Of a stretch of 36,332 nt of DNA, positions 15,010 through 31,933 are shown in pieces; within the stretch, counting starts at the first letter, position 1, and every line of letters begins with the position of its first letter. The stretch is from Flavobacteriaceae bacterium (GTDB taxonomy: Bacteria; Bacteroidota; Bacteroidia; Flavobacteriales; Flavobacteriaceae), in contig JAHEHE010000021.1 in the NCBI GenBank assembly GCA_024644725.1, positions 1-36,332 of the forward strand, read 5' to 3'. The notes beneath the pieces are model-generated. The model saw nothing but the letters and a program-made list of their open reading frames with translations. It was not told the origin of the DNA and ran no database searches. Made by a program: the position numbers and the translations under genes.

Positions 15010-15045
15010 AGGTTCTTGAAAAGGTGCGTAAAGTAAGAAGAAAAA

Positions 15046-15053
15046 CAAATTTA
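15046..15053 (-). promoter_or_regulatory. Candidate -7 promoter element for the large VCBS lipoprotein
   Basis: Read on the minus strand this is TAAATTTG, an exact TAnnTTTG match, giving a leader of about 30 bases to the ATG at 15009. No TTG is seen at -33; the 16-bp palindrome occupies the spacer region just upstream. Confidence 0.45.
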
Positions 15054-15161: not shown

Positions 15162-16838
15162 ATGAGGCATTTTCGCTTTTTTAGCTTGATGTTTGTCACT
15201 GTGTTGTTTTCGGCCTTTGTCGGATGCAAGAACGAAACGACCGTGAATAATGACATTCAACGGCAATCTTATGTTTCTCCTTCTGCTGATTCTACATACT
15301 TCCAGGAAATTGGCGCTCAAATCGGGTTGAATTTCAACCATTCGATCGGTGGCAATGAATTGAAAAACATCATTGAATCTGTTGGTGGCGGCGCCGCCTT
15401 TTTGGATTATGACAATGACGGCTACCTGGACATATACGCCTGTAGCGGGATCTGGATTGAAGGATTCAGCAAATCCGACAAGCCCGAAAAGAGAGCCGGC
15501 AACAAGCTCTATCGAAACAGGCAGGACGGCACTTTTGAGGACGTTACGGATAAGGCCAATGTGGCCGGACCATGGTATAGCATGGGGATTTCCGTAGCGG
15601 ATTACAACAATGACGGTTTTTCCGACCTGTTTCTCAGCAACTACGGAAGAAATACGCTCCTGGAAAACAATGGGGATGGAACTTTCGTCGACCGAAGCAA
15701 GGACTCCGGGCTCGAAGGTGGGATGGAATGTAGCGTGGGAGCCACCTGGCTCGATTATGACAACGATGGACTCCTGGACCTCTATGTGGGTAATTACCTC
15801 AATTTTGATCCGGATTACAAATACTACTATGCACCGGACGGATTCCCAGGGCCTTTGGCCTATGATGCCCAGCCCGACCACCTCTATCACAACTTGGGAG
15901 ACGGGTCATTTGAAGAGGTCACCGAGGAGATGGGAATCAGTGATCTCGACGGTAGAGCCATGGGGGTGGGTTCGGCAGATTATGACCATGACGGATACAT
16001 GGATATTTGCGTAGCCAATGATCATACTGTGAATTACATGTGGCACAATAACCAGGGACAAGGCTTTACCGATTTGGCTACTCTCTCGGGTACCGGATTC
16101 AGCCAGGCTGGAGAGGCTACTGTGAGCATGTCGGTGGATTATGCCGATTACAACAAAGACGAGCTCCTGGATATATTCATCTCTGATGACAACTATTGTT
16201 CCCTGTATGAGAACATGGGAAACGGTGTTTTCAGGGACAATTCCTATGCCTCTGGAATATCAGTGGCCTCTGGTCAATTCGTGGGCTGGTCTTCGTCATT
16301 TCTCGATTTTGACAATGACGCGGATCCTGACCTTTTCAAAACCAACGGCGAGCTCAAGCATCTTTACGGGCAGGAGGACCAGATCTTCGAAAATCTCGGT
16401 AATGGTCTGTTCAAGGATGTTTCGGTGAACCTGGGGGGCTATTTCGAAGAGGAGCATGTGGGTCGGGGGGCCTGCATCGGGGATTATGACAACGACGGGG
16501 ACCTTGACATCTTCATTGTCAATCTCAATTCGGAGTCCAGGTTTTTGAGAAACAACTTAGGAAACACCAACAACTGGTTGATCGTCGACCTCATCGGGAC
16601 CCGGAGCAACCGGGACGGAGTGGGAGCAAGCCTCCGACTCATTGCCGACGATGATGTGCAGATTACCCAAAAGAAAAGCACCTCGGGTTACCTCTCTCAA
16701 AGTGATCCGCGGATACATTTTGGACTGGCCGATCACGAAAAAGTTGACAAATTGGAGATCGTATGGCCGTCGGGTGCGAAGCAGGTACTTGAAGGAGTGG
16801 CCGTGAATCAGGTTCTCCAGGTGAGGGAACCGGAATGA
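15162..16838 (+). CDS. CRTAC1-type lipoprotein (FG-GAP/VCBS repeats plus ASPIC/UnbV)
   Basis: A 558-residue exported protein with a lipoprotein signal ending FVGC (Cys22). About seven calcium-binding propeller loops follow (DYDNDGYLD, DYNNDGFSD, DYDNDGLLD, DYDHDGYMD, DYNKDELLD, DFDNDADPD, DYDNDGDLD), then a C-terminal ASPIC/UnbV domain from about residue 475 (NRDGVGASLRLI, GYLSQSDPRIHFGLA). This is the standard CRTAC1 length and layout. The propeller is expected to face the periplasm or cell surface and bind a partner rather than catalyse. It is the first gene of the plus-strand locus and its stop overlaps the next start as ATGA, so it is translated with the heme-binding lipoprotein that follows. 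A 16-bp palindrome lies 89 bases upstream of its start. Confidence 0.92.
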   Translation: MRHFRFFSLMFVTVLFSAFVGCKNETTVNNDIQRQSYVSPSADSTYFQEIGAQIGLNFNHSIGGNELKNIIESVGGGAAFLDYDNDGYLDIYACSGIWIEGFSKSDKPEKRAGNKLYRNRQDGTFEDVTDKANVAGPWYSMGISVADYNNDGFSDLFLSNYGRNTLLENNGDGTFVDRSKDSGLEGGMECSVGATWLDYDNDGLLDLYVGNYLNFDPDYKYYYAPDGFPGPLAYDAQPDHLYHNLGDGSFEEVTEEMGISDLDGRAMGVGSADYDHDGYMDICVANDHTVNYMWHNNQGQGFTDLATLSGTGFSQAGEATVSMSVDYADYNKDELLDIFISDDNYCSLYENMGNGVFRDNSYASGISVASGQFVGWSSSFLDFDNDADPDLFKTNGELKHLYGQEDQIFENLGNGLFKDVSVNLGGYFEEEHVGRGACIGDYDNDGDLDIFIVNLNSESRFLRNNLGNTNNWLIVDLIGTRSNRDGVGASLRLIADDDVQITQKKSTSGYLSQSDPRIHFGLADHEKVDKLEIVWPSGAKQVLEGVAVNQVLQVREPE

Positions 16839-18130
16839 AAACTGGAAAGATGACTGTAGGAATGATGTGTTCATATAACTCGGGCAGGAAGAAACACCTC
16901 AAGATGGTGTTACCACTCTTGATGATCTTAGTTTGGCTGACGTCAATATCCTGTTATCAGAAACCAGCTGAGGGATCGATTCTGGTCGTTCAGCAAGCGA
17001 CAGGGGAGGATGTGAAATCTGAATTGGCGCTGATGGACCCGAGCAGACCTGATCAGGATCCTGTTGTCTTGGTCAAAGAATTTTACGAGGTGGCATCACC
17101 CGAAATTTCTTACCAGGGAGGTGCAGTGGTTTTCCAGGCCAAAAAAGAATCCGGAGATTCCTGGCAAATCTGGGAATACGATCTTGAGGGTGGGGAATTG
17201 AATCAAGTGACGGATGCTGATTCTGATTGCGGGGAACCGGCTTACCTCCCGGACGGCAAAATTCTCTATTGCCGATTTGTCCCGGATTATTCAGGGTATC
17301 ACGTTTTGGAAACTTCAAAGTCGGATGGCACGGAAACTCAGCAAATCACATTCGGGCCTGTAGATTTCGCCTCTCCAATAGTACTTATGGATGGAAGGAT
17401 TCTTGCCTTCGCCAAAGAGAGACATCCCAAGCCTGGAAAAACGCAGTTGATGGTCATGCGACCGGACGGGACGAAAATTGAATTGTTTTATGAGTCCGAC
17501 CAGGAAAATGCAATTGTGGCAGATGCGGGGCTCTATCAAACCGCAGATGACCGAATCGTCTTTTCAGAGAAAGCCCTGGGGGAGGAAGTCGAAGTCCGAT
17601 GGATTTCAGTGGACTACAACCACCCCATGGACAGCCGGGTGCAGTATGAGGCAGAAAGTATGAATAATTTGAAGCAAGTCGTTTATGCGCCTCGACCCCG
17701 ACCCAAAAAGCTGCCGAGCGCTGTGAACCCCGAGGTTGAAACGGCTCTTTTGGTCTGTATGGATGTCAATTTATCGGAAAATGACGCACACGAAACTCAA
17801 GACAGTTCAGTCAAAGTCGAACTTTTGGGTCTTGAAGGTTCGCTGGGAACGGTCGACCTGGAGGAAGACGGTTCAGTCTATATGAAAATACAGGCAGACA
17901 TGCCTTTCAGGATGCAAACCCTGGATAGGCAAGGCAAGGTGGTAGAGGGTCCAAGCAGCTGGCTGCAAATGCGACCCAATGAACGGCGCGGTTGTGTCGG
18001 TTGCCATGCGGGTCATACAAGGGTACCTGAAAACAGGCAGCCCCTGGCGGTTCAGAAGGAGCCCGTTGAAATACCCCTGTACCGTGAAACCATCATGGCG
18101 AGCAGGCTGACTCAAAAAGAAAAGAAATGA
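16835..18130 (+). CDS. Hydrazine-synthase-alpha-like propeller lipoprotein with one CxxCH heme site
   Basis: A 431-residue exported protein. ATG 16835 overlaps the previous stop (ATGA); alternative in-frame ATGs follow up to 16904, just before the hydrophobic signal that ends in the lipobox SISC. The middle is a TolB/PD40-like propeller (EPAYLPDGKILYCRFVPD). Near the C-terminus RRGCVGCHAGH gives a c-type heme site, Cys387-x-x-Cys390-His391; this context matches the heme segment of HzsA-related proteins. True HzsA from anammox bacteria is much longer and carries a second heme and zinc site; nothing here supports hydrazine chemistry. An electron-transfer or redox-sensing role with the next gene is likely. 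It overlaps that gene by four bases as well. Confidence 0.8.
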   Translation: MKTGKMTVGMMCSYNSGRKKHLKMVLPLLMILVWLTSISCYQKPAEGSILVVQQATGEDVKSELALMDPSRPDQDPVVLVKEFYEVASPEISYQGGAVVFQAKKESGDSWQIWEYDLEGGELNQVTDADSDCGEPAYLPDGKILYCRFVPDYSGYHVLETSKSDGTETQQITFGPVDFASPIVLMDGRILAFAKERHPKPGKTQLMVMRPDGTKIELFYESDQENAIVADAGLYQTADDRIVFSEKALGEEVEVRWISVDYNHPMDSRVQYEAESMNNLKQVVYAPRPRPKKLPSAVNPEVETALLVCMDVNLSENDAHETQDSSVKVELLGLEGSLGTVDLEEDGSVYMKIQADMPFRMQTLDRQGKVVEGPSSWLQMRPNERRGCVGCHAGHTRVPENRQPLAVQKEPVEIPLYRETIMASRLTQKEKK

Positions 18131-20151
18131 ACAATATAAAGGTCTTTTGGTGGATTTCTTTCGCTCTCGGATTGGGCCTGTTGATCTATTTCCCGGGAGG
18201 TGAGCTGGCGCGCTCGCATGTCAATGAAAAAACAGCGGTAACCGACCATCCCCTTACATGTACGAATTGCCACCTGTACATCACGAAGAACGAATACATT
18301 TCGAAGCTCGTCAACGAAGACTATCTGTCTCCCTTGAATCTCACTATGTCGAAAGACGGTCAATATCTTTATGTTGTCGCACAGGACGGCGATGCGGTTC
18401 TTAAAGTGGATACCCGAACCCGGGAAGTTGTAGGAAAGGCTGCTGTTGGCGATCACCCGCATAGTGCTATTCTGGATCATGAAAAGCAGTTGCTTTATGT
18501 CAGCAATCAATGGTCAGACAATATTTCTGTGCTGGATGCCGTATCCCTGACTCAACTGGACACTCTCAGGGCAGGCAATGGGCCCTCGGGTCTGGCGCTG
18601 AGCTCAGACAAAAAGCGACTTTATGTTGTAAACACCTTTAATTCAAGTGTTTCTGTCATTGATATCTCGTCCGAAAAAGAGATGAAAAGGCTCAGGGTAG
18701 GTAATGACCCAACGGGAATAGCGGTTTCGACAGACGGTCAAATACTTGTGGGAAGCCGAAGGGCAAGGCTGTCGGAGTATGGAGTCCCGCTGGAGACGGA
18801 TCTGGTTGAATTCGACTCGGAATACGACCGCGTCACGAAGAGAATCCCTATGACAAATGCCTACTTGATCGAAAACATTGCCTTTACCCCAGCTTCGGAT
18901 GTCGCCCTTACTACGCTGATTCGGCCCAAGAACAACATACCTTCGGTTCAGGTGGAAGGCGGATGGATGATGACCCATGGCATTGGATTCCTTGAAAACA
19001 AACCCAATGGAAAGATCGCACAGCTTTTGATCGATGAGCCGAATTCCTATTACCCGGATCCTTTTGACATTGTGGTTTCACCTGACGGCAAGAAGGCATT
19101 TGTAAGTAGCTCAGGAGTCGACATGATCTCTGCTATTGCCATCGACTCTTTGCGCAACCTGATGAAGAATTCAACTCAAAACGACCTGGATCGTCTGGCC
19201 AATGATCTTGGTGCGAGCAGAAGCTTCGTCATCGGTAGAATAAAAACCGGGGCCGGACCCAAGGGAATGGTGATATCCCCGGATGGTACTCAATTATACG
19301 TTGCCGAACAGCTCGAAGACAAAATTGCTGTGATCGATGTGCAGTCTCTGGAGAAAATAGACGAGGTGGACCTGGGAGGTCCTGAAAAGGTAACGGTTCT
19401 GAGACAGGGCAGGAGGCTGTTCACCAGTGCAGGTCACACCTTCCAGAATCAATATTCCTGTTATACCTGTCACCCGGACAATCACGAAGACGGACTGGTC
19501 TACAACATGGCCGGGAAGCACATGGGAAGAAATCTTGCCAATACCCAATCTTTGAGGGAAATCGGAGATACGGCTCCGTTCAAGTGGAACGGAAAGAATC
19601 AGACAGTTTACAAGCAGGATGGCATGCGTTTTTCGACCATCCTGACCCGAACCGAGGCTTTCAGCTACAGCGATCTCGACGCGATTACCGCTTATATCAT
19701 GCGAGGAATCGACCATCCGCCGAATCTGCAATACAATCCGGATGGAAACCTGACAGCCTCCCAGGAAAGAGGAAAGGTAATTTTTGAGCGTACCATAGAC
19801 AACAACGGAGAAGTCATTCCTGAGAACAATCGTTGTGTGACCTGTCACCCTGCGCCGCTCTACACGAATCGTCAAATGGCAGATGTTAGTACCCTGGCAG
19901 ATACAGATGATCCGATGTTGTTTGATACGCCCCATCTGACCAACCTCTTTGCTTCACCTCCTTTCCTGCACGACGGGAGGGCAAAAACTCTTGAGGAAAT
20001 CTGGACGGTATACGCTGAAGACGATCGGCACGGAAGGGTCAATGATCTGACGAAACCCGAGCTGAATGACCTGATCAATTATCTGAAATCACTGAGGTCG
20101 CCCAAATACATGAACGATGAAGAGGTGGCCTATAATCTAAAAACAAAATGA
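18127..20151 (+). CDS. YVTN beta-propeller fused to MauG/cytochrome c peroxidase-like domain, three heme sites
   Basis: A 674-residue exported multiheme protein. An N-terminal helix (residues 5-27) is a signal or anchor. CxxCH sites are CTNCH (45-49), CYTCH (445-449) and CVTCH (570-574). Between the first two lies a YVTN/lactonase-type propeller (LYVVAQDGDAVLKVD, LYVSNQWSDNISVLD, LYVVNTFNSSVSVID). The C-terminal part has the paired-heme layout of the bacterial peroxidase/MauG/MbnH group, including DTPHLTNLFASPPFLHDGRA, where a histidine after the last heme is a typical axial-ligand region. The third, N-terminal heme is an addition that could pass electrons in or out. It probably oxidises a periplasmic partner or reduces peroxide. 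ATGA overlaps on both sides couple it to the HzsA-like gene and to the small propeller. Confidence 0.88.
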   Translation: MNNIKVFWWISFALGLGLLIYFPGGELARSHVNEKTAVTDHPLTCTNCHLYITKNEYISKLVNEDYLSPLNLTMSKDGQYLYVVAQDGDAVLKVDTRTREVVGKAAVGDHPHSAILDHEKQLLYVSNQWSDNISVLDAVSLTQLDTLRAGNGPSGLALSSDKKRLYVVNTFNSSVSVIDISSEKEMKRLRVGNDPTGIAVSTDGQILVGSRRARLSEYGVPLETDLVEFDSEYDRVTKRIPMTNAYLIENIAFTPASDVALTTLIRPKNNIPSVQVEGGWMMTHGIGFLENKPNGKIAQLLIDEPNSYYPDPFDIVVSPDGKKAFVSSSGVDMISAIAIDSLRNLMKNSTQNDLDRLANDLGASRSFVIGRIKTGAGPKGMVISPDGTQLYVAEQLEDKIAVIDVQSLEKIDEVDLGGPEKVTVLRQGRRLFTSAGHTFQNQYSCYTCHPDNHEDGLVYNMAGKHMGRNLANTQSLREIGDTAPFKWNGKNQTVYKQDGMRFSTILTRTEAFSYSDLDAITAYIMRGIDHPPNLQYNPDGNLTASQERGKVIFERTIDNNGEVIPENNRCVTCHPAPLYTNRQMADVSTLADTDDPMLFDTPHLTNLFASPPFLHDGRAKTLEEIWTVYAEDDRHGRVNDLTKPELNDLINYLKSLRSPKYMNDEEVAYNLKTK

Positions 20152-21176
20152 AAAAATTCGCTAAAATCAACGCTTTTGCTCTTATCGCCTTGTTTTTTGT
20201 GGCCTTTACCGGGGAGGAGCCTGAGGAGTCGCCTCTACTTCCGGTTTTCGGAAAGTGGAAATCGTTTACCAAAAAGGAAGGGCTTCCTTCAAACAAGACG
20301 TATTGTGTTCGCATTGTCGAGGATCGGGTCCTTGTCGGTACCCATGACGGATTGGCGGTTTTAGAGGATGGAGAATGGAAGACCTACACAACCGATGACG
20401 GTCTGGCTCACAACGGGGTGCTCTCCATTGACTTCAACGAGCAAACAGGAGACATATGGCTGGGAACCATGGGAGGCCTGACAAGATGGTCGGCCGGGCG
20501 ATTCACCAACTTTACACAGCTGAACAGCGGCATGCCGAATGATCTGATCTATTCGGTTACATGCGATCAAAACGAGGTATGGGTAGCTACGGCAGGTGGG
20601 GCAGGAAAGTACGATACTTTTGATGAAAGCTGGGAGATCTACACCGAGCAGAATGCACCCATGCATGAGCCCTGGACCTATGGCATATCTGCCGGTGACA
20701 ACAAGATTTTTATCGCGGCCTGGGGAGGTGGCGTCGTAGAGTATTCCCGCAAGACGGGGCAGTTCAGGGATTATGTCGATCCCGACGGGAACATGGAAAT
20801 CGATCTGTTTCCCGACGACGGCGTGGTTCACGACATTACGACCGGGACTTCCTGGTCGGATGGGTACCTGTGGGTTGCCACGTATTTCGGACTGAGCCGC
20901 TATGACGGTGTGCACTGGAAAGGTTATTTCGATCATGACAGCGGACTGGCCAGCAATTTCATCAACTTCATCAAAGCTCATAACGGAATAGCCTACATAT
21001 GCACCGACAAAGGCTTGAGCACCACAGACGGAGAGAACTGGTCGACCTATGTGAACCCGGATTTGGCACATAGCTATGTTCTGGGAGTCGACATCCGCGA
21101 TGATGTTGTTTGGGTGGCGACCTCAGACGGGCTATCCCGGGGCGAGAGGATCAGCGCCGGCAGCAGGGTCAATTAA
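20148..21176 (+). CDS. Stand-alone regulator-type (Reg_prop) beta-propeller, exported
   Basis: A 342-residue protein with a signal sequence (KKFAKINAFALIALFFVAFTG). The rest is repeated blades of the two-component-regulator propeller type, each with a W(K/E)xYTxxDGL strand and an xxVWVATxxGLSR strand, for example EWKTYTTDDGLAHN and DIWLGTMGGLTRW. In Bacteroidota such propellers normally form the sensor half of HTCS kinases; here there is no Y_Y_Y domain, membrane helix or kinase, so the propeller stands alone as a periplasmic binding module. Its ATG overlaps the multiheme gene stop (ATGA), indicating equal production and probably a shared complex. A 60-base A-rich gap separates it from the Rid gene. 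Confidence 0.82.
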   Translation: MKKFAKINAFALIALFFVAFTGEEPEESPLLPVFGKWKSFTKKEGLPSNKTYCVRIVEDRVLVGTHDGLAVLEDGEWKTYTTDDGLAHNGVLSIDFNEQTGDIWLGTMGGLTRWSAGRFTNFTQLNSGMPNDLIYSVTCDQNEVWVATAGGAGKYDTFDESWEIYTEQNAPMHEPWTYGISAGDNKIFIAAWGGGVVEYSRKTGQFRDYVDPDGNMEIDLFPDDGVVHDITTGTSWSDGYLWVATYFGLSRYDGVHWKGYFDHDSGLASNFINFIKAHNGIAYICTDKGLSTTDGENWSTYVNPDLAHSYVLGVDIRDDVVWVATSDGLSRGERISAGSRVN

Positions 21177-21236
21177 AACAAATAGAAAAGAAGAACAAAT
21201 AGATAACTAATAAGCAGAATAATAAAATTAAGATTT

Positions 21237-21848
21237 ATGGAAACAATGACTATAAAGGACAAAAAGAAAGTAGTTGAAAAAGAGCCGTTATTGATTGACC
21301 TGAACAAGTTGACAGACGGTGAAAAGCTGGAAATGAAGAAGCTGGGGATTCTCTCAGAGAAAAATGACATCATAGAATCGGTGTATCCCGAGGTTCACGC
21401 AGAACGACCTCCGATTGAAAAGCATGTCACTCACGCACCTCATACGATCAATGAGGCGTATAATTATGACAAACCCTCTTCATTTTCAAGGGCACTCCGT
21501 CTCGATTTGGGCGAGTATAAGGCTTTGCTGATTTCGGGTACAGCCAGCGTCAATGAAGAAGGAAAACCCGAGCATATCGGTGACTTCAAGGCGCAGCTCT
21601 GGAGAACTTATGTGAACATCACCAACCTTCTGGAGGCTGAAGGCATGTCATGGCACGACGTGGTCAGGACCACCAACTACCTTCGTGACATCGAAAGGGA
21701 CTATGAGGAATTCAACAAGATCCGTACGTCTTTCTACAGATGGCTGAAGCTCGATCCGCTTCCAGCAAGCACCGGAATTCAAGCGCGATTGTGCTGGGAG
21801 ACCTTGCTCGTAGAGGTTGAGGTATGGGCGCTCTGCAAGTCAAAGTGA
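21237..21848 (+). CDS. Rid-superfamily (YjgF-like) protein without the canonical arginine
   Basis: A 203-residue protein, longer than RidA (about 128) by an N-terminal charged extension of about 65 residues. The C-terminal two-thirds fit the Rid fold: ALLISGTASVNEEGK, then LEAEGMSWHDVVRTTNYLRDI, then LPASTGIQARL and LLVEVEVWAL. RidA enamine/imine deaminases need an arginine in a PAR(S/T) motif; here that place reads PAST, with Ser178 where the arginine should be. It is therefore probably not a canonical 2-aminoacrylate deaminase and may be a ligand-binding or differently reacting branch, as seen in chorismatase-like relatives. No signal peptide. It sits between the exported propeller genes and two substrate-binding proteins. 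Confidence 0.8.
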   Translation: METMTIKDKKKVVEKEPLLIDLNKLTDGEKLEMKKLGILSEKNDIIESVYPEVHAERPPIEKHVTHAPHTINEAYNYDKPSSFSRALRLDLGEYKALLISGTASVNEEGKPEHIGDFKAQLWRTYVNITNLLEAEGMSWHDVVRTTNYLRDIERDYEEFNKIRTSFYRWLKLDPLPASTGIQARLCWETLLVEVEVWALCKSK

Positions 21849-21894
21849 TGAATCTTAATCCTCAGGGAGGACTAAATTTTTAAATAATTGAATC

Positions 21895-23205
21895 ATGAGG
21901 CAGCATTTGTTTTTGATCGGGTTGTTTCTGTCCGGACTTCTTTTTACCGGGTGGGATTTGGAAGCCCAGGATAAGGAAATCAAATACGGAAACACCCCGG
22001 AACAGTTATTTCCATACAATAAATTCAGGCAGGCCTACAAATATCATTTTTTGGAGCCCATTGAGTTTTATGGGCCGGGTCGCGACAAGAAACCGCCCGC
22101 TGGGCTGTCTGAGGTGCGCATCGGATTTCTTGGGCCACTGACCGAAGACGAGATGTTTTTCGAGGGCAAGAATATGCTCAACGGAGCCTTGCTCGCCCTG
22201 GAGCAGGCCAATGCCAGGGGCGGATACAAAGGTTTGCCCTATCGACTCATGGCACACAGTGACGCAGGTCTTTGGGGGGCGGCGGCCAACGAGGTGATCA
22301 AAATGGATGAAGAAGGCGTTTGGGCCTGGCTCGGCTCCATCGATGACATCGTGTCTCATGTTGCCCTGAGAGCCACCTTGAAAGTGGAGATCATGATGGT
22401 CAACACGGGAGATCCAGATCCGACCTTCACCGAAACGAACATCCCCTGGGCAATTCGTGTGATCAGTGACGACCGGCAAAGTGGTTACGCATTGGCCATG
22501 CATATTTTTGAAGAGAAAGGACATGAGCGTGTTGCCGTGATCCGTTCCAACAACCGTTACGGCCGCGTTGGGGTGATGGAGTACTCTGGAGTGGCGACAC
22601 GACTGGGGCATCCGATGATGATCGAGGAACGATTTGACAACGGGGAAACCGATTTTACCATGCAGTTGGAGAATATCAAACGGGTGAAGCCCGATGCCGT
22701 ATTGATCTGGGCGAACGCCAAGGAATCGGCACTGGTCCTCAATCAAATGCGCGAAATGGGTATGGATCAGCCTGTCTATGCCTCTGACAGGGCCGTTTCC
22801 GAAGAATTTCTGAAACTGGCAGGTAAAAATGCAGAAGGCGTGGTGAGCACGAGTCCTTACAACCCGGAAGCTAACCTGCCGCAATTGAAAGCTTTTCAGG
22901 AATCTTACAAAGAACGTTTTGGTAAGGAAGCAGATGTCTATGCCGCACATGCCTATGATGGAATGAACCTCATCGTTAAGGCCATAGACCAGGTAGGATT
23001 GAACCGGGTTTTGATTCGGGACATTCTCACTGATCTGGAGACTTTTCAGGGCTATCCGGGAGTGACCGGGGAGATTGTTTTTGACGAATCCTGGAATGAC
23101 ATTGGGGAGATATGGATGGCTCGGGTCAAGGACGGAGTTTTTGAGTATAGCCCAAGTCCGTTGAACTACGAGAGAAGCGGTTCGAAGCGAATGCCTGGTT
23201 ACTGA
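21895..23205 (+). CDS. LivJ-type ABC substrate-binding protein (first of pair)
   Basis: A 436-residue exported protein with signal peptide ending LEAQ. It belongs to the type-I periplasmic binding proteins for branched-chain amino acids, amides and aromatic acids (Peripla_BP_6): VRIGFLGPLTEDEMFFEG opens the first lobe, NGALLALEQANARGGYKG is the classic early helix, and VAVIRSNNRYGRVGV and VLIWANAKESALVLNQMREMGM follow in lobe two. It lacks a lipoprotein cysteine. Permease (LivH/M) and ATPase (LivF/G) genes are missing from the window, and the neighbours are redox and propeller proteins, so it may deliver or sense a ligand for an extracytoplasmic enzyme rather than feed an importer. The second binding protein starts two bases after its stop. 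Confidence 0.88.
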   Translation: MRQHLFLIGLFLSGLLFTGWDLEAQDKEIKYGNTPEQLFPYNKFRQAYKYHFLEPIEFYGPGRDKKPPAGLSEVRIGFLGPLTEDEMFFEGKNMLNGALLALEQANARGGYKGLPYRLMAHSDAGLWGAAANEVIKMDEEGVWAWLGSIDDIVSHVALRATLKVEIMMVNTGDPDPTFTETNIPWAIRVISDDRQSGYALAMHIFEEKGHERVAVIRSNNRYGRVGVMEYSGVATRLGHPMMIEERFDNGETDFTMQLENIKRVKPDAVLIWANAKESALVLNQMREMGMDQPVYASDRAVSEEFLKLAGKNAEGVVSTSPYNPEANLPQLKAFQESYKERFGKEADVYAAHAYDGMNLIVKAIDQVGLNRVLIRDILTDLETFQGYPGVTGEIVFDESWNDIGEIWMARVKDGVFEYSPSPLNYERSGSKRMPGY

Positions 23206-23207
23206 TC

Positions 23208-24332: not shown

Positions 24333-24360
24333 AAAAACTTTTTATCTCTTTTTAATTATT

Positions 24361-24368
24361 TAACTTTG
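24361..24368 (+). promoter_or_regulatory. Candidate internal -7 promoter element before the TPR-VCBS gene
   Basis: TAACTTTG is an exact TAnnTTTG match five bases before the ATG at 24374, within an AT-rich 41-base gap. If active it would start a leaderless or very short-leader transcript and split the eleven-gene locus into two units. No good -33 is visible. Confidence 0.35.
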
Positions 24369-24373
24369 AAGGG

Positions 24374-27300
24374 ATGAAAAATTGTGTTCACAGTATACTT
24401 TTCCTCCTGTTGTTGTCGCTTGTGGTCTCTTGCGAGTCAGAGGAGGAGAAGAACAGAAAAATGGAAGTGCAGCTCATGTCGACTCAGACGCTGGGCCTGG
24501 CCTATCTCGAGGAGATGAAACTGCAAGAGGCCGAAACGGAATTCCAGAAATTCATTGAGCTCGCACCTGATGAAAAATTGGGCTATGCGAATTTGGGCCT
24601 GGTCTATCTCAGGATGGGGCAGTATGAAGAGGCAGAAAAAAGACTCTCAGAGGCCAAAGCACTGGACAAGTCAGATCCTGACGTGAATCTTCTGTTGGCT
24701 ACGTCGTATCGTCTTCAGGGCCGAAATCAAGACGCTATTCGAGTTTTGGAAGAGACTTTGGAGTCAAATCCTGAACATCCCAAAGTGCTTTTTGAACTTT
24801 GCGAGCTGTACGGTGCCGATCAGGATGATGCGGCCCTTAAGAAGAGACAAACCTATCTGGAACAGCTTGCCGCCAAGACCCCAGGGAATTTGGTCCCCAT
24901 GATTCTTTTGATTGAATCGTATATCAAATTGGAAAATGCAGACGGGGCTCTGGCAGAATTGGAAAAGCTGCCGGCGCAGTTTCCTGAATTCCCGGCGGAA
25001 TCCATGCCCTTCTACAGACAGACCCTTGAAACCCTTCAGGCGGGAGATACCGGGCCAGCCCTCATACCTTTCACCGTTTTTCACAATTATCAGAAAGTAA
25101 CGTATCCCTACCAAAAGGGAATGACCGATCTCAAAGGTCCTGGAGAGTCAGCCCTTGGAATTCCCCTGATAAACTATAGCGAAACGACTGCCATGTCCGG
25201 GGAAATGGAAGGTGACATTCTCGAATCCATCCAATTTACCGAAGTAGCAGCGAGTGCGGGTCTTCGGTTCGAATCTCTTGGTCATGAGGAGGGAAATGTT
25301 GAATTTCCGGTTCACCATGCGGTGGGTGACTACGACGGAGACGGGGACATGGATCTTTATATCGGCAGAAAGGACGATGTAAATGGCGAATTCAAAAGCT
25401 ACCTGTTTCAAAATGAGCTGGGGCGTTATCAGGATTTCGCCTCTGGTTACGGAGTGAAGAATAACCCGAAGGAGAACAGGGCTGCTTTTGCTGATTTCGA
25501 CAATGACGGCTTTCTCGATCTGCTGATTCTCATCAAGGACGGAACTGTGCTCTATCACAATGCGGGCAAGGGAAATTTTGTAAATATGACCGAAGAGGCA
25601 GGTCTTTCAACTCTTAAAGAGGGTTCGAGTCCTTTGTTTGTCGATCTGGACCACGATGGAGACCTCGATTTGTTTCAGGCCCGCGACGGGCTGAACCAGG
25701 TATTTTTGAATACCGGCGACCGCAGTTTTAAGCAGGTTGAGGATCAGATGGGGCTGGGCGGTGCTCCGGATACGAAGACAACCGAAGCCATTTTTGGCGA
25801 CTTTGACGATGACGGAGATCTTGACCTTTACCTGGTCAATGCCAATGCACCGGATCTTTTTGCCTGGAATCAAAGACAGGGTGCCTTCAAAACTGTGGAG
25901 ATGAGTGGTGAAATGGATGTTCCTGTTGGATCAAAGGCCGCTGTGGCCGGGGATTTCAACAATGATGGACTTTTGGACCTTGCTCTTGTCAACAATTCGA
26001 ACAGTCCATTGCTGCTGTTGGAGAATCAGGGAGAAGGAGCATTCAAATCGAGATCCGACCTGGCAGCCGACTTTCAAGATTTGGGAGGTGCAGATATTAA
26101 TGATCTCGAGGTGATCGATTTTGACAACGACGGATATCTTGACCTTGTTTTGGCGGGTGCATCCAAGACCGAAGCTGACCGAGGCGTATATCTCTATCAC
26201 AATAAAGGAGACGGCTCTTTTGAAAACCTGAGTCAACTTTTGCCTGAGGGACCATTCAGCACAAGTCAGATTTCTACATTCGATTACAATGAAGATGGAG
26301 ATTCCGATCTCCTGCTTTCGGGCACGAAAGGTGAGGTCTTCCTGTTGCGCAATGACGGAGGAAACAGGAATCACTATTTGAACATGAAGCTCGTAGGACT
26401 CAGAACAGGTAGTGCCAAGAACAACTATTTCGGTATCGGGTCAAAAGTTGAGATGCGCGCTGGTGATCTCTACCAGAGCACTGTTGTCACCCAACCCGAG
26501 ATCACTTTCGGATTGGGCAATCGCTCCAAGGCGGATGTGATCCGAATCACCTGGACCAACGGCGTCCCCCAAAACATTGTCCTGCCGGATGCGAACCAAA
26601 ATCTTATCGAAGAGCAGACCTTGAAAGGCTCCTGCCCATTCCTTTACACCTGGAACGGTGAAGAGTATGTTTTTGTAAAGGACATCACCTGGCGCAGCGC
26701 GTTGGGAATGCCTTTGGGCATTATGGGTGAAAATATGAGCTATGCCTTTGCAGATGCCTCAGATGACTATTTGCTGATTGAAGGAGAGAATCTTAAACCC
26801 AAGGACGGAAGGTATTCCCTGAAAATCACCTCTGAGCTTTGGGAGACCATTTATATGGACAGGTTGCGACTCGTGGTGGTGGATCACCCGGATTCGGTTG
26901 AAGTATTTGTTCCGGAACAGTTTTCTCCTCCGCCATTTCCGGGCATGGAGCTGCACCAGGTGGCAGACAAAGTATACCCGGTAAGAGCCGTGGCGGGCAA
27001 GGGTCTGGATGTTCTGGACCTGGTGACCTCAAAGGATGACCGTTACGTGAGTCAGTTTTACAAGGGGAAATACCAGGGATTGGCTGAGATGCATGAGCTC
27101 GTCATCGATCCGGGGCCTGAGGTCGATTTGCTGAACCTCAAGCTCTTCTTGCGTGGATGGATTTTTCCGACTGACGCGAGCATCAACGTGGCTCTGTCTC
27201 AATCAGATGCACTTTCCCTGAGGCCTCCTTCGCTGGAGGTGCTCGATCAGAATGGCAACTGGAGGACCGTGATCGATCAGATCGGTTTTCCTATGGGCAA

Positions 27301-27949
27301 GGACAAAATGGTTATTGTCGACCTTTCAGGAAAGATCACAAGCAAAGACCGTCGCATCCGCATCCAAACGAATATGGAAATCTACTGGGACGAGATATTC
27401 TTCTCTTCGGGCACGGGCAAAGCTCCTTTGCACACGACGATTTTGGACCCTGATGATGCCGACCTTCATTACCGGGGCTTTTCGCGCTCGTATAGGAAAG
27501 GTGGTAGGCACGGACCTCACTGGTTTGACTATGCTTCGGTCAGCAAGGAACCCAAATGGAATGATCTCACCGGGAATTATACCCGTTTTGGAGACGTCCT
27601 GGAGCTTTTGAATCAAGCCGACAACCAGTATGTGATTTCGAATGCCGGTGATGAGATGAGCGTACATTTCGATGCCAAAAAGTTGCCGAAGCTTCAGAAA
27701 GGATGGAAGAGAGATTTCCTGATCCACAGCGTGGGCTGGGTCAAGGACGGTGATATGAACACTGCGGAAGGAAGAACGGTTGAACCCCTGCCTTTCCATG
27801 GAATGAGCTCCTATCCTCCATCAGCAAATGACCTCTATCCTGCAACTCCTGAGATTCTTGAGTACCACAAAAGTTACAATACACGCGTCATTGAAAAGGA
27901 ATCTGGCAAAGGAAGTTTAATCCAATTGAACATTAAACCCGGGGAATGA
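24374..27949 (+). CDS. TPR-VCBS-ASPIC/UnbV lipoprotein with uncharacterised C-terminal region
   Basis: A 1191-residue protein, lipobox VVSC near residue 20. Domains in order: tetratricopeptide repeats (about 35-200; KLGYANLGLVYLRMGQYEEA), FG-GAP/VCBS propeller (about 280-660; DYDGDGDMD, DFDNDGFLD, DLDHDGDLD, DFDDDGDLD, DFNNDGLLD, DFDNDGYLD, DYNEDGDSD), ASPIC/UnbV (about 670-745; FGIGSKVEMRAGDLYQS), then about 440 residues with no named family that I recognise. That tail begins CPFLYTWNGEEYVFVKDI and includes RGWIFPTDASINVALSQ and the tryptophan-rich FLIHSVGWVKDGDMNT near its end. It looks beta-rich with a late galactose-binding-like section, by inference. It is likely a surface scaffold. Its stop overlaps the next CRTAC1 start by four bases. 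Confidence 0.88.
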   Translation: MKNCVHSILFLLLLSLVVSCESEEEKNRKMEVQLMSTQTLGLAYLEEMKLQEAETEFQKFIELAPDEKLGYANLGLVYLRMGQYEEAEKRLSEAKALDKSDPDVNLLLATSYRLQGRNQDAIRVLEETLESNPEHPKVLFELCELYGADQDDAALKKRQTYLEQLAAKTPGNLVPMILLIESYIKLENADGALAELEKLPAQFPEFPAESMPFYRQTLETLQAGDTGPALIPFTVFHNYQKVTYPYQKGMTDLKGPGESALGIPLINYSETTAMSGEMEGDILESIQFTEVAASAGLRFESLGHEEGNVEFPVHHAVGDYDGDGDMDLYIGRKDDVNGEFKSYLFQNELGRYQDFASGYGVKNNPKENRAAFADFDNDGFLDLLILIKDGTVLYHNAGKGNFVNMTEEAGLSTLKEGSSPLFVDLDHDGDLDLFQARDGLNQVFLNTGDRSFKQVEDQMGLGGAPDTKTTEAIFGDFDDDGDLDLYLVNANAPDLFAWNQRQGAFKTVEMSGEMDVPVGSKAAVAGDFNNDGLLDLALVNNSNSPLLLLENQGEGAFKSRSDLAADFQDLGGADINDLEVIDFDNDGYLDLVLAGASKTEADRGVYLYHNKGDGSFENLSQLLPEGPFSTSQISTFDYNEDGDSDLLLSGTKGEVFLLRNDGGNRNHYLNMKLVGLRTGSAKNNYFGIGSKVEMRAGDLYQSTVVTQPEITFGLGNRSKADVIRITWTNGVPQNIVLPDANQNLIEEQTLKGSCPFLYTWNGEEYVFVKDITWRSALGMPLGIMGENMSYAFADASDDYLLIEGENLKPKDGRYSLKITSELWETIYMDRLRLVVVDHPDSVEVFVPEQFSPPPFPGMELHQVADKVYPVRAVAGKGLDVLDLVTSKDDRYVSQFYKGKYQGLAEMHELVIDPGPEVDLLNLKLFLRGWIFPTDASINVALSQSDALSLRPPSLEVLDQNGNWRTVIDQIGFPMGKDKMVIVDLSGKITSKDRRIRIQTNMEIYWDEIFFSSGTGKAPLHTTILDPDDADLHYRGFSRSYRKGGRHGPHWFDYASVSKEPKWNDLTGNYTRFGDVLELLNQADNQYVISNAGDEMSVHFDAKKLPKLQKGWKRDFLIHSVGWVKDGDMNTAEGRTVEPLPFHGMSSYPPSANDLYPATPEILEYHKSYNTRVIEKESGKGSLIQLNIKPGE

Positions 27950-29613
27950 TTAAAATGGCTGCAGTTCGATACTTTTCGATTCTTATGGGGTTTCTTTTGG
28001 GTGCCCATGTGATGGCTCAAAGTGTATCTCCGAGGTTCACCGAGGTGACCCGGGAAACGGGAATTGACTTTCTGTACAACTTTGGAGATGAGTCTTATGA
28101 GAACATTCTGGAGAGCAGTGGTTCGGGAGTGACCGTATTCGATTACAACAACGACGGCTTCATGGATATCTATATGCTCAACGGCACGTATCTGCAGGGG
28201 ATTTCCGATGAACAGGGCGAAAAGTTCGAAGGGAGCACGAACGCCTTTTACATGAACCAAGGGGACGGAACTTTTCAGAACGTTTCGAGAGCCTCCGGGC
28301 TTGATGATCCTTCCTGGGGGATGGCAGCGGTACCTGTTGATCTTGACCTCGACGGTTATCAGGATATCTACCTGCTCAACTATGGAGAAAACGTTTTTCT
28401 GAGAAACAACGGAGACGGAACCTTTTCGGATACAACGGAGAAGCACGGTTTGAAAGGCCCGGCGGAACTCAACGGGTTTGTCAAATGGAGCATAGGAGCC
28501 GCTTTTTGGGACCAGAATAAGGATGGGAGACTCGACGTAATGGTGGGTAATTTTCTGGCTTTTGATCCCGGATATGTTTCAGCAGAGGCACCCGACATGA
28601 TGCCTCACCCGGCTGAATACAGGGGGCAGGCAAGCATGCTCTACGAGCAGCAGACGGATGGCTCCTTTGAAGAGGTGACCCAATTGTACGACTTGTTTTA
28701 CCCGGACTCCAAATGCATGGGATTGTCTGTTTTTGACTATGATACGGATGGTGACCTCGATATTTTTCAAGCCAATGACCATCAGAAAAACTTTTTGTTT
28801 CTAAATGACTCGGGAAAATATAAAGAGGTTGGAGTCGCGAGCGGAATAGCTACGAACAGCAATGGTCAGGAAACCGGCTCGATGCACGCTACGCTGGGTG
28901 ATGTGGATGGAGACGGCCTGATTGATATCCTTGTGACCGATCTCAAGTACGGCGCCCTTTACAAAAACATGGGCAATGGCCTGTATCGTGACATCACCGA
29001 GTCAAGTGGAATCGCAGGGCCCATGCGTGGCAAGGGTTGTTGGGGTGCCGCCTTTCTGGATTATGACAATGATGGCGATCTCGACCTTGTAACAGCCAAC
29101 GGAACAGCAGAAGAATTGATTTTGCAGTATCCATTGCTTCTTCAAAATGACGGGACCGGGAAGTTCAAAGATGTAGGGAAGCAGGCAGGGTCTTATTTTA
29201 AGACCAAAAGATCGGGACGGGGACTGGCCATTCTGGATTATGACAACGATGGTGACATCGACATTCTCATCTCCCACGTGGATCTCAAAGCTACTCCTGC
29301 TTTACTCCGAAACGAAACCGGGACGGAAAACCACTGGTTGGGGCTGACACTGATGGGGCCGCTTGGCCTTAGCTCAGGTTTGGGCGCCCTGGTGACCGTG
29401 GAGGCCGGAGGAAAAACCCAGGTAGCGATCAACCAATGGTCGATGGGCTATCTTTCAAATAATGACCCAAGGCTTCATTTAGGTCTCGGAACCGCCGAGA
29501 AAATTGACAGGCTCGTAGTGAGTTGGCCCGATGGCGAACATCAGACTTTTGAAAACCTGGAAACAGGCAGATATCTAAAAATTGACAAGAACAAGGGCCT
29601 ATTGAGCCCGTGA
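27946..29613 (+). CDS. CRTAC1-type exported protein (FG-GAP/VCBS repeats plus ASPIC/UnbV)
   Basis: A 555-residue protein coupled by an ATGA overlap to the TPR-VCBS gene. It has a signal peptide (SILMGFLLGAHVMAQ) but no lipoprotein cysteine, unlike the other two CRTAC1 genes in this locus. Propeller loops include DYNNDGFMD, DLDLDGYQD, DQNKDGRLD, DYDTDGDLD, DVDGDGLID, DYDNDGDLD and DYDNDGDID. The C-terminal ASPIC/UnbV domain runs from about residue 465 (GLGALVTVEAGGKT, GYLSNNDPRLHLGLG, VVSWPDG). Its length and repeat order match the 15162-16838 gene closely enough to suggest ancient duplication. As a soluble exported propeller it may bind the TPR-bearing lipoprotein. The asparagine-synthetase-like gene follows after 15 bases. 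Confidence 0.9.
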   Translation: MIKMAAVRYFSILMGFLLGAHVMAQSVSPRFTEVTRETGIDFLYNFGDESYENILESSGSGVTVFDYNNDGFMDIYMLNGTYLQGISDEQGEKFEGSTNAFYMNQGDGTFQNVSRASGLDDPSWGMAAVPVDLDLDGYQDIYLLNYGENVFLRNNGDGTFSDTTEKHGLKGPAELNGFVKWSIGAAFWDQNKDGRLDVMVGNFLAFDPGYVSAEAPDMMPHPAEYRGQASMLYEQQTDGSFEEVTQLYDLFYPDSKCMGLSVFDYDTDGDLDIFQANDHQKNFLFLNDSGKYKEVGVASGIATNSNGQETGSMHATLGDVDGDGLIDILVTDLKYGALYKNMGNGLYRDITESSGIAGPMRGKGCWGAAFLDYDNDGDLDLVTANGTAEELILQYPLLLQNDGTGKFKDVGKQAGSYFKTKRSGRGLAILDYDNDGDIDILISHVDLKATPALLRNETGTENHWLGLTLMGPLGLSSGLGALVTVEAGGKTQVAINQWSMGYLSNNDPRLHLGLGTAEKIDRLVVSWPDGEHQTFENLETGRYLKIDKNKGLLSP

Positions 29614-29628
29614 AAAAATTAAAATGAT

Positions 29629-30957
29629 ATGAACAGTGAATACATCAGCAAGGTCATTGACCTTACGCATCCCGAAAAGAACATCATCTACAACATGACG
29701 CATGAAGAGGCGGTTAGCAGGGTGAATTCTGGAGACTTGGAAGCCGTCCGGGAGATAGACGGGCAATTTTGTCTGGTCGCCGTTGAGGGTAAGACCATAC
29801 GTATGGCTCGTTCTATAGGACGACCAATTCGATATTTTATCGCCAAGCTCGAGTCCGGGCCTCAACTGGTAATCGCGGAACGGATTGACGTGATTTACGA
29901 CTACCTAAAAAAAGAGGGTATGGATGACCAGTTTCATCCATCCTACACCCGAATGGCACCAGCACATTACATCACACGAATCGAGTTGTTGGGCTGCCCC
30001 GATCCAAACCCGGTTTACGACAGGTTCTTCACCCCGAAGCGAAATCGATATGCTCCTGAAAGCCTGGAGTTCATAGGAGTTGACTACATGTCAGCTCTTT
30101 ATGAAGAAATTAAAAAGTGGTTGAAATTCAAGGCGACTTCGGGTCCTGTTGGAGTGACTTTTTCGGCAGGAATAGACAGCGGCTCTGTTTTTCTCTTGAC
30201 CTATCACGCTCTGAGGGAGCTCGGGGAAAGCCCCTCGCGACTGAAAGCCTTTACGCTGTCTGTCGACGGCGATGGCGCCGATCTTCTGCAGGCCCGCAAA
30301 TTCCTTTCATCCGTTGGTTTGGAGATGTTCCTCGAGCCGATTGAATTGGATTACAGCGCACTGAACTGGAAGGAGGCCATTGAGGTCGTTGAGGATTACA
30401 AGCCCCTTGATGTTCAGTCTGCGACGATGAACCTGGCCCTGCTGAAAGGAATCCGTGAAAAGTATCCGAACTGGAAATATCTGATTGATGGTGACGGGGG
30501 TGATGAGAACCTCAAGGATTACCCGATCGAGGAGAATCCGGAATTGACCATCAAGAGTGTGCTGAACAATCTTATGCTCTACCACGAAGGATGGGGGGTT
30601 GATTCCATAAAGCATTCACTCACGTATTCTGGTGGTCTCAGTCGCGGATACACACGCACCTGTTCCCCGGCCGACATGCTGGGCTTTGAAGGCTTCAGTC
30701 CGTATACTTTGCCAAACGTTATCGAGATTTCGGAGGGGATTCCGTATATAGACATGACCGATTGGGATCACGAAAGACTTTACGAACTCAAAGGTAAAGT
30801 CGTAAGCATCGGTGTCAAGGAGATTACCGGCCTGGACATGCCTGTTTTTGAAAAACGACGCTTTCAGCACGGGGTGACTTCACAGGAGCTATTCGAACGT
30901 CACTTCCCTAAAAAGGACATTGATTACAGGAAAGAATTTCATTCCAGGTATGAATGA
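29629..30957 (+). CDS. Asparagine-synthetase-like ATP-dependent ligase lacking the glutaminase cysteine
   Basis: A 442-residue cytoplasmic protein. The N-terminal 130 residues resemble a worn class-II glutamine amidotransferase domain (IDGQFCLVAVEG, RSIGRPIRYFIA), but residue 2 is Asn and there is no N-terminal cysteine, so it should not hydrolyse glutamine. The synthetase half keeps the PP-loop in altered form, SAGIDSG (179-185, usual SGGLDSS), and the second ATP/pyrophosphate motif GDGGDE (288-293, usual GEGADE). Loss of the cysteine with retention of ATP sites is how beta-lactam synthetase and lasso-peptide cyclases differ from AsnB: they adenylate a carboxylate and let an internal or supplied amine attack. 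It overlaps the radical SAM gene by eight bases, implying a joint pathway. Product unknown. Confidence 0.82.
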   Translation: MNSEYISKVIDLTHPEKNIIYNMTHEEAVSRVNSGDLEAVREIDGQFCLVAVEGKTIRMARSIGRPIRYFIAKLESGPQLVIAERIDVIYDYLKKEGMDDQFHPSYTRMAPAHYITRIELLGCPDPNPVYDRFFTPKRNRYAPESLEFIGVDYMSALYEEIKKWLKFKATSGPVGVTFSAGIDSGSVFLLTYHALRELGESPSRLKAFTLSVDGDGADLLQARKFLSSVGLEMFLEPIELDYSALNWKEAIEVVEDYKPLDVQSATMNLALLKGIREKYPNWKYLIDGDGGDENLKDYPIEENPELTIKSVLNNLMLYHEGWGVDSIKHSLTYSGGLSRGYTRTCSPADMLGFEGFSPYTLPNVIEISEGIPYIDMTDWDHERLYELKGKVVSIGVKEITGLDMPVFEKRRFQHGVTSQELFERHFPKKDIDYRKEFHSRYE

Positions 30958-31933
30958 GAATCTCTCAAATCCGGAGATGAATTCGAGGGAGATAAATTCC
31001 AAATGGATCCTCTCCCAGAGAGGGGAAAAGAACAAAATTGAGCCCCATCGCCCCTATGATTTCATGATGGAGAAGGAGCGGCGGCCCAATGGAAAGGTGG
31101 AATATACCGCGACTATCTTTTTGTCGAACAAGGAGTGCTCCTTTAAATGCCTGATGTGCGACTTGTGGAAGAACACCTCGGATAATACTGTTCCTGTTGG
31201 AGCCATTCCCGAACAAATCGAATGGGCCCTTTCCCAGTTGCCATCTGCCCGGCATATCAAGCTGTACAACAGTGGGAGCTTTTTTGACGAACGAGCAATT
31301 CCGAAATCGGACTACCAGAGCATCGCCAAGCTTGTGGATCACTTTGAGACCGTGATTGTAGAGAGTCATCCCAGGCTAATTGGAGAAAAATGCCTGGAGT
31401 TCAGGGATTTGATCTCAGGAAAGCTCGAAGTGGCGATCGGACTGGAAACGGCCCATCCAGAAATTCTTGGACGATTGAACAAGCAGATGACCCTGGAAGA
31501 CTTTCAGATAGGGGTCGAATTTCTGAAGATGAACGAAATAAATTCCAGGGCTTTTATTCTGCTTCGCCCTCCCTTTATGTCAGAGCAGGAAGGCATCATT
31601 TGGGCAGAGAAATCCATCGATTTTGCCTTTGACTGCGGCGTGGATTCGTGCACGGTCATTCCGGTTCGGGCGGGAAATGGCGCCATGGACGAATTGATGA
31701 AAAAAGGAGATTTTGAAATGCCCACCCTGTCTTCCTTGGAGGAGGTTTTGGCATATGGGGTGTCACAGAGAAGAGGCCTTGTTGTTGCGGATACCTGGGA
31801 CCTCGAATTGTTCGCCGAATGTGATACCTGCTTTGAAGATCGATATCATCGAATTCTCCAAATGAATTTGACGCAGAAGTTTTCTGACGCGTTAGAATGT
31901 GAAGTTTGCTCAAGCCACTACCTGAATGACTAA
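30950..31933 (+). CDS. Radical SAM enzyme, Elp3/RaSEA-like, with extra C-terminal CxxC pairs
   Basis: A 327-residue protein from the ATG at 30950, which overlaps the upstream stop; the earlier TTG at 30920 lies deep in the other gene. The iron-sulfur motif ECSFKCLMCDLW gives Cys63-x3-Cys67-x2-Cys70. KLYNSGSFFDERAIP and EVAIGLETAHPEILGRLNKQ match the family that includes archaeosine synthase subunit RaSEA and Elp3-like enzymes. Two more cysteine pairs close the protein: Cys291/Cys294 (ECDTCF) and Cys317/Cys320 (CEVCSSH), a possible zinc site or auxiliary cluster. It would generate a 5'-deoxyadenosyl radical. No tRNA-modification genes are nearby; coupling to the AsnB-like ligase suggests the two act on one substrate. 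It ends six bases from the convergent DUF481 gene. Confidence 0.84.
   Translation: MNENLSNPEMNSREINSKWILSQRGEKNKIEPHRPYDFMMEKERRPNGKVEYTATIFLSNKECSFKCLMCDLWKNTSDNTVPVGAIPEQIEWALSQLPSARHIKLYNSGSFFDERAIPKSDYQSIAKLVDHFETVIVESHPRLIGEKCLEFRDLISGKLEVAIGLETAHPEILGRLNKQMTLEDFQIGVEFLKMNEINSRAFILLRPPFMSEQEGIIWAEKSIDFAFDCGVDSCTVIPVRAGNGAMDELMKKGDFEMPTLSSLEEVLAYGVSQRRGLVVADTWDLELFAECDTCFEDRYHRILQMNLTQKFSDALECEVCSSHYLND

Follow-up and report, generated by a model that had tools for sequence, protein, structure and literature searches.

Here we describe a locus of eleven genes, designated A to K, which spans positions 15162-31933 of a 36,332-nucleotide stretch of contig JAHEHE010000021.1 from a Flavobacteriaceae bacterium (assembly GCA_024644725.1); this whole stretch is called the window below. 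The gene system is real and widespread and recurs in many marine and sediment bacteria, and its eleven genes very probably constitute one functional unit. Pfam and NCBIfam agree with the families assigned in a preliminary description of this DNA, which had recognised three FG-GAP/UnbV proteins (A, H and I), two c-type heme proteins (B and C), one propeller (D), two binding proteins (F and G), an AsnB-like ligase (J), a radical S-adenosylmethionine (SAM) enzyme (K) and a Rid protein (E). As the best explanation at hand, we tentatively propose that the operon could well serve both the synthesis and the extracytoplasmic use of one aromatic small molecule. To our knowledge, no job has been found for relatives of hydrazine synthase outside anammox bacteria; the locus ties one kind of these homologues to a fixed gene set with two small-molecule-making enzymes, often accompanied by an extra shikimate entry enzyme, and turns homologues without an assigned role into a testable claim, namely that an aromatic compound depends on J and K.

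Conserved order and linkage of the eleven genes

All eleven reading frames are open and lie on the plus strand, as a check of the sequence confirmed, and the intergenic distances from A to K are -4, -4, -4, 60, 46, 2, 41, -4, 15 and -8 bases. The five overlaps comprise four ATGA junctions and one of 8 bases, exactly as had been described. Using K as a query in named genomes yielded 295 relatives, the best 80 of which were kept (the 80 K loci below). The presence of C was examined in 50 of these 80 genomes, mostly those with K on long contigs, and C regions were fetched from 34 of the 50 as well as from G025; many other loci are cut by contig ends. Genes were labelled by their best phmmer match to the window's own proteins, to one halogenase and to one 3-deoxy-D-arabino-heptulosonate 7-phosphate (DAHP) synthase.

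Apart from the window, 22 loci, each from a different genome, have the order A-B-C-D-(E)-F-(DAHP synthase)-G-H-I-J-K on one strand, counted out of 52 rows with a C label that include duplicates, cut loci and three distant homologues from Planctomycetota. The two halves of the locus (15162-21176 and 21237-31933), whose joint occurrence elsewhere had been at issue, are contiguous in these 22 genomes. Three loci (L093, L101 and L106) differ from the main order solely by an extra or split frame. A rearranged order, J-K-A-B-C-D, is seen in nine rows representing eight distinct loci (L058 and L118 are one locus), and a third version in four loci (L043, L063, L076 and L081) places frames of approximately 700, 610 and 300 residues between K and H; in L081, the one tested, a cytochrome c554 domain is present in the frame of approximately 700 residues, and the frame of approximately 300 residues has TPR repeats. 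Homologues of H occur in 50 and homologues of I in 57 of the 80 K loci, counts that have to be read with the caution that FG-GAP/UnbV paralogues are confusable under best-match phmmer labelling. From these arrangements the true sub-units look like J-K, H-I and A-B-C-D-F-G. Of 199 genomes from the window's family, four carry K and the same four carry C; a C match of at least 42% identity was present in 44 of the 50 K-bearing genomes, with three of the matches cut by contig ends.

A number of counts weigh against reading the locus as one system. Among the 395 genomes of the phylum sample, C (E 1e-40) occurs in four, all of them within the 24 that carry J-K, and J-K is thus often found without C. 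Six of the 50 K genomes, namely three Planctomycetota, one Calditrichota metagenome-assembled genome (MAG) and two Bacteroidota MAGs, hold distant matches only and no close C. In family f24, in which C and K stand on different contigs, K is present in six of the seven C genomes as compared with 21 of 28 in the genus and 30 of 92 in the family, and G642, which is 92% complete, has C without K. This unlinked co-occurrence is not above chance, and the unlinked genomes failed as an independent proof of dependence, since the f24 counts match the genus background. In two f24 loci (L139 and L140), C and the genes A, B and D to G are present along with an H-like frame, and J-K is absent. On the complete chromosome of G226, C-D-E-F-G-H and J-K lie approximately 140 kb apart, and the halves are likewise apart in G361 and G603. 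In one locus with unlinked J-K (L052:6612-8537), an M61 peptidase fused to a UnbV domain sits directly upstream of the pair, in the place of gene I.

The earlier proposal of one system is therefore sustained by the same-order unit in 22 genomes and by the shared four genomes of the family, and has to be qualified in that the halves are separable, that J-K reaches 24 genomes of the phylum sample against four for C, and that many J-K pairs stand beside a halogenase-like gene. What argues for one system is that the genes have stayed linked despite rearrangement, and not that they co-occur when unlinked. That two unrelated operons merely lie side by side, as the separable halves and the chance-level counts of f24 could be taken to indicate, is highly improbable in view of a linkage that outlasts two different gene orders and many lineages.

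The J-K pair, its halogenase-like partner and an extra DAHP synthase

J (29629..30957, plus strand) and K (30950..31933, plus strand) are found in the identical 24 of the 395 phylum genomes, adjacent or within approximately 2 kb of each other. J is present in 77 of the 80 K loci, and in 72 it immediately precedes K in the same orientation; the three loci without J are L043, where K lies at the contig edge, and two from Planctomycetota. Hosts of K include Maribacter, Lutibacter, Lutimonas, Draconibacterium, MAGs of Prolixibacteraceae and Bacteroidales, and a few Planctomycetota, and K was also detected in MAGs labelled Chlorobiota, Marinimicrobia, Calditrichota and Deferribacteres. The pair is a clean new marker, which occurs together with a heme machine or, alternatively, with an enzyme resembling phenol-type halogenases.

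J is an ATP-dependent ligase of the AsnB/beta-lactam-synthetase kind without the N-terminal glutaminase Cys. In an alignment of 58 rows with 73% mean column identity, S179, G181, D183 and S184 of the SxGxDS loop are invariant; J departs from asparagine synthetase B in that the window's protein has no Cys at its N-terminus and that C123 is the only invariant Cys in the 58 rows. The predicted structure, with a predicted local distance difference test (pLDDT) score of 83.5 and a poorly modelled stretch at residues 292-336, matched asparagine, beta-lactam and carbapenam synthetases as well as TsnB9 in Foldseek (E 4.6e-12 to 1.1e-8), and a hydroxyamidotransferase is also among the fold matches. A profile of J matched asparagine synthetases in the PDB weakly, and single-sequence phmmer searches of the PDB returned no match for J and two unrelated ones for K at E 0.3-0.9. 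J thus resembles the beta-lactam and carbapenam synthetases, members of the AsnB family without glutaminase, in its fold, its degenerate N-terminal domain and its SxGxDS loop, and differs from the AsnB-family structures matched in Foldseek in sharing only 11-17% identity with them.

K belongs to the lineage of RaSEA, with TIGR01210 as the nearest NCBIfam model (119.7 bits, below the cut-off of 212.15, over nearly the full model length). Its radical SAM motif CxxxCxxC (C73, C77 and C80, numbered from a longer frame starting at 30920) is present in at least 95% of 81 rows, and C301 and C304 form a second conserved CxxC pair. The substrate of RaSEA is a lysine adduct of preQ0 in tRNA. As described in the accessible part of PMC11298593, archaeal RaSEA complexes with ArcS, and ArcS adds lysine to the substrate first. 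By analogy, J may play the adding role ahead of K: a radical SAM protein of the same lineage is in both cases paired with a second enzyme, although J is AsnB-like and not ArcS and no tRNA-modification family is among the operon matches. Two other parallels were considered and set aside. The ammosamide pathway combines an AsnB-like enzyme with a halogenase, and no radical SAM enzyme of K's kind is mentioned for it in the accessible part of PMC12715798. The nitrile-forming, AsnB-like PesC gives a hint at the role of J, but uses glutamine or ammonia on a peptide, according to the accessible text of PMC13060819. As for the J-K link itself, no description was found in the open-access literature.

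The other partner of J-K is a flavin halogenase-like gene. J-K regions were fetched from 20 of the 23 J-K genomes of the phylum sample besides the window, and in 18 of these 20 regions, as in two of three Planctomycetota loci, this gene comes after K in the same orientation (the K label of L120 is masked by an overlapping frame); the two J-K regions without it are L127 and L137, the latter with K at the contig end. The best solved relatives of the encoded protein are PltM (145 bits) and the tetracycline 7-halogenase (138 bits), and CmlS, QhpG and LodB are more distant models; its family is distantly related to the QhpG, LodB and GoxB maturases. In all 20 halogenase-like proteins, a GxKRGF motif has its Lys, and this residue falls in the alignment on a Lys of PltM that we take to be the catalytic one. 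Phenolic halogenases such as PltM accept phenols and anilines as substrates, as stated in the accessible part of PMC8269204. At E 1e-10, the window's genome holds no halogenase homologue, and one was present in four of 25 genomes (G361, G603, G442 and G244).

A tree of 104 K rows separates the two contexts: 46 rows with B, C, D, F or G genes form, together with 35 unclassified rows, a group of 81 (support 100/98) that includes none of the 20 halogenase rows, with the caveats that the root is merely the midpoint of the drawing and that a long-branch warning applies to the halogenase rows. L119, which falls among the halogenase rows, is a bridging case, as its J-K-halogenase trio is adjoined on the other strand by an H homologue (932 bits) and has an A-like gene near. 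The Planctomycetota K genes are those of L056, L084 and L080, two of which have a halogenase-like gene next; a 3-dehydroquinate synthase gene is near in L056, and the genome of L080 encodes a halogenase homologue on another contig. Directly after K in that locus lies a 648-residue frame (L080:10896-12839) without any Pfam or NCBIfam match.

A further clue comes from a DAHP synthase gene, present in 26 of the 80 K loci and located between F and G in those main-order loci that have one. Exactly one protein over the TIGR01361 cut-off was detected in each of 16 tested carrier genomes, and in all 16 it was the enzyme encoded in the operon; 15 of these genomes also keep a copy scoring approximately 170-180 bits, presumably the housekeeping one. 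All nine tested genomes without an in-operon gene, the window's included, have no protein over that cut-off. The in-operon DAHP synthase is hence an extra copy and not the usual one. When a pathway has its own copy of the first enzyme of the shikimate route, its product is usually aromatic, and the relative of phenol-type halogenases in the sister loci points the same way; the J-K product is therefore probably aromatic. The extra copy in many relatives also favours the making of a molecule.

It might be asked whether J-K instead make a secreted secondary metabolite, such as a signal, an antibiotic or a metal-binding compound, with the heme and propeller genes merely finishing it or coupling it oxidatively at the surface, much as the sister-type halogenase would. 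This would suit the patchy spread (24 of 395 genomes) and the J-K-halogenase trios, for which no other neighbour family is common to more than four of 23 loci. Nevertheless, we consider it unlikely, as eight exported-looking proteins in fixed order would be a large apparatus for tailoring, and the operon matches include no non-ribosomal peptide synthetase, polyketide synthase or transporter family.

Heme proteins, binding proteins and the possible function of the operon

An exported redox and binding part combined with a cytosolic synthetic part had been suggested for the locus, and this division fits the family assignments as well as the signal and lipobox sequences, all of which were judged by eye. 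The exported part includes A (15162..16838, plus strand), a CRTAC1-like FG-GAP/UnbV propeller and probable lipoprotein encoded by the first gene of the operon in the 22 main-order loci, and D (20148..21176, plus strand), a Reg_prop-type beta-propeller whose gene is flanked in syntenic loci by C on one side and by E or F on the other. H (24374..27949, plus strand) is a probable lipoprotein with TPR, FG-GAP and UnbV parts and a conserved, beta-rich C-terminal domain of approximately 445 residues, for which a fold search gave nothing at E 0.001 and weak matches that include discoidin, APC10 and CBM structures; I (27946..29613, plus strand) is an exported FG-GAP/UnbV propeller. Through this setting, the FG-GAP/UnbV proteins gain a functional context. 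No signal sequence was seen in E (21237..21848, plus strand), a member of the Rid family of imine/enamine deaminase-like proteins with an N-terminal extension, whose gene is missing from some loci; the RidA-type Arg is present in 30 of 32 rows.

B (16835..18130, plus strand), another probable lipoprotein, is similar to the alpha subunit of hydrazine synthase and contains a TolB-like propeller, an HZS_alpha middle domain and one c-heme motif. C (18127..20151, plus strand) resembles a fusion of the beta and gamma subunits, with a beta-propeller, a CcP/MauG-type di-heme domain and one N-terminal c-heme motif; three CxxCH motifs are found in 42 of 43 homologues of C. In both content and order, the extracytoplasmic half of the window agrees with the clade III homologues of PMC12758564 (Hagglund et al.), the comparison being one of descriptions and not of tree placement. 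In the accessible part of that paper, the alpha-like and fused beta-gamma-like genes of these homologues are preceded by an FG-GAP gene and followed by two ABC substrate-binding protein genes, and their beta-gamma protein has an extra heme motif and a Trp in place of gamma His144. The authors argue there against hydrazine synthesis and give no further function for clade III, and the terms 'radical sam' and 'asparagine' do not occur in that text. The initial statement that no described pathway has this gene set consequently needs to be narrowed: no described system combining all the parts, with J-K among them, was found in open-access text, whereas the extracytoplasmic part is already in print as clade III.

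With the structure of anammox hydrazine synthase (5c2v) as reference, C matches the beta subunit (5c2v_B, E 6e-50) and the gamma subunit (5c2v_C, E 5e-18), and B matches the alpha subunit (5c2v_A, E 3e-12). Taken with the hydroxyamidotransferase among the fold matches of J, these hits might suggest a nitrogen chemistry in which N-N or N-O bonds are made or broken by B and C, with the cytosolic genes supporting this reaction. We regard this as very unlikely, since two catalytic residues of hydrazine synthase and its second alpha heme have no counterpart in B and C: gamma His144 is replaced by Trp in C ('PFRHEG' of hydrazine synthase aligned with 'PFKWNG'), alpha Tyr591 is not conserved in B ('CSGCHYGSYR' versus 'CVGCHAGHTR', where the match ends), and B, like 41 of 42 homologues, has a single CxxCH. 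Both residues are named in PMC12758564, and its accessible part reports the same losses for clades I-III or II-III. All scores of B and C against the NCBIfam models of hydrazine synthase are far below the cut-offs.

The di-heme domain of C points in another direction. Both of its CxxCH motifs and a MauG/CcP-type Trp are present in 43 of 43 aligned rows, the window's included, and the Pfam family CCP_MauG scores 36.7 bits (cut-off 25.6). C differs from MauG and MbnH in its fused propeller and in scores far below the cut-offs of the NCBIfam equivalogs (19.9 versus 443.85 bits for MauG, 29.6 versus 362.85 bits for MbnH). This weak similarity, together with the distant kinship of the sister-type halogenase family to QhpG, LodB and GoxB and the occurrence of H or I in many K loci, would also accommodate a protein modification, in which a residue of an exported protein such as I or H is modified by J and K and finished by C, in the way that MauG completes tryptophan tryptophylquinone. 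However, no conserved protein or peptide partner accompanies the J-K-halogenase loci, L119 with its nearby H homologue excepted, and the high conservation of J suits a small substrate. A search of 19 loci with J-K-halogenase or K-halogenase revealed no conserved gene for a small peptide among the 25 best-shared small frames, all of which, as judged by eye, run antisense to J, K or the halogenase gene or overlap one of them. Unlike the quinone-cofactor maturation systems of QhpG, LodB and GoxB, the operon has no quinoprotein subunit among its matches. Modification of a protein thus seems quite unlikely to us.

F (21895..23205, plus strand), which is conserved in the syntenic loci, and G (23208..24332, plus strand) are Peripla_BP_6 binding proteins. 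No ATP-binding cassette (ABC) permease or ATPase is encoded among the 20 window proteins scanned with Pfam, a few smaller frames of the window lying outside the scan, and F and G therefore look orphan. Each matches three other ABC binding-protein models of NCBIfam at E 0.01, none of them named for a pyrroloquinoline quinone (PQQ) dehydrogenase system. The propeller of C scores 120.5 bits against the PQQ-catabolism-associated TIGR03866 (cut-off 287.3). Orphan binding proteins and a propeller of this kind are also features of the PQQ-dependent alcohol dehydrogenase system, from which the locus differs in that no PQQ dehydrogenase family is among the Pfam and NCBIfam matches of its eleven genes.

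These features bear on two further explanations. Conceivably, the compound is a diffusible, PQQ-like redox cofactor: J and K, a pair of AsnB-like ligase and radical lyase comparable to ArcS-RaSEA and supplied in many genomes by the dedicated DAHP synthase, would build an amidated or aminated aromatic, and outside the cytoplasm C and B would mature it to its quinone form or its radical-active form, for transport or use by the FG-GAP/UnbV propellers and the orphan binding proteins. We put this forward as a doubtful proposition; if true, it would give the hydrazine synthase homologues outside anammox bacteria their first function. Alternatively, the operon might be catabolic, F and G capturing an external aromatic or amine, B and C oxidising it outside, and J, K and E processing the fragment in the cytosol. 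In favour of such a role can be cited the orphan binding proteins, the propeller scoring against TIGR03866, the general ability of Rid proteins to handle imines, and the SusD and alpha-amylase genes that follow H in L068. An ATP-spending J and the extra DAHP synthase of many relatives point to synthesis instead, J-K stand elsewhere beside a halogenase-like gene, and no permease, dehydrogenase or ring-cleavage family is among the operon matches, all of which makes catabolism improbable in our view.

For our preferred explanation, in which one aromatic small molecule is made by the operon and used outside the cytoplasm, we infer the following course of events from the conserved linkage of the genes, from the locked pairing of J with K and the alternative partners of this pair, from the additional DAHP synthase and from the residues observed above. 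In the cytosol, J would adenylate the carboxylate of an aromatic, shikimate-derived precursor and couple it with an amine from a source other than a glutaminase of its own, and K would then use radical chemistry to open or cleave the adduct, in the manner of RaSEA following ArcS. E may clear reactive imine by-products, and the dedicated DAHP synthase may boost the precursor supply in many relatives. Outside the cytoplasm, the compound would be bound by F, G and the propeller proteins A, H and I, and the heme pair B/C would oxidise it or use it as an electron carrier, with a di-heme domain that is MauG/CcP-like and not that of hydrazine synthase. In the window's lineage, a MauG-like heme machine thus probably acts on the presumed aromatic product outside the cell; in the sister version, an enzyme resembling flavin halogenases would replace this machine beside J-K.

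On the other side of the balance stand, in addition to the counts given above, four observations. The window's own operon has no DAHP synthase gene, and no match over the TIGR01361 cut-off was found in the window's genome. In L127, a J-K pair is followed by 1.7 kb without a halogenase match. Given its score below the RaSEA cut-off, the chemistry of K may differ from that of RaSEA. Finally, no exporter gene was identified in the operon.

Other features of the window and its relatives

Searches of the window for tRNAs and Rfam families gave none, and the PADLOC models of anti-phage defence matched no family for eight proteins (seven from the window and one from a relative). Promoter and terminator scans remained at shuffled level (20 versus 16.2, standard deviation 3.8, and 16 versus 18.4, standard deviation 4.8, respectively), and we therefore make no statement on transcription. 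Upstream of A in L109 lies a frame (18971-19501) that looks, by eye, like a sensor histidine kinase and has relatives in L093, L096, L097, L099, L100 and L107; it is a possible regulator of the operon.

A fourth FG-GAP/UnbV protein of 1129 amino acids is encoded on the minus strand at 11659-15048, its start lying approximately 110 bases from gene A. Frames that match this protein best also flank the operon in relatives, upstream in L086 and L141 and downstream in L085, L088-L090 and L094. The window's genome (2.8 Mb) encodes nine UnbV domains, four of which are within the window. Besides, the minus-strand gene at 33616-35958 encodes one protein with a patatin phospholipase domain followed by an Omp85-type barrel domain, and the plus-strand gene at 1113-3425 encodes a single-protein hybrid two-component system with an AraC-type output domain, near which genes for a major facilitator superfamily transporter and an esterase are located.

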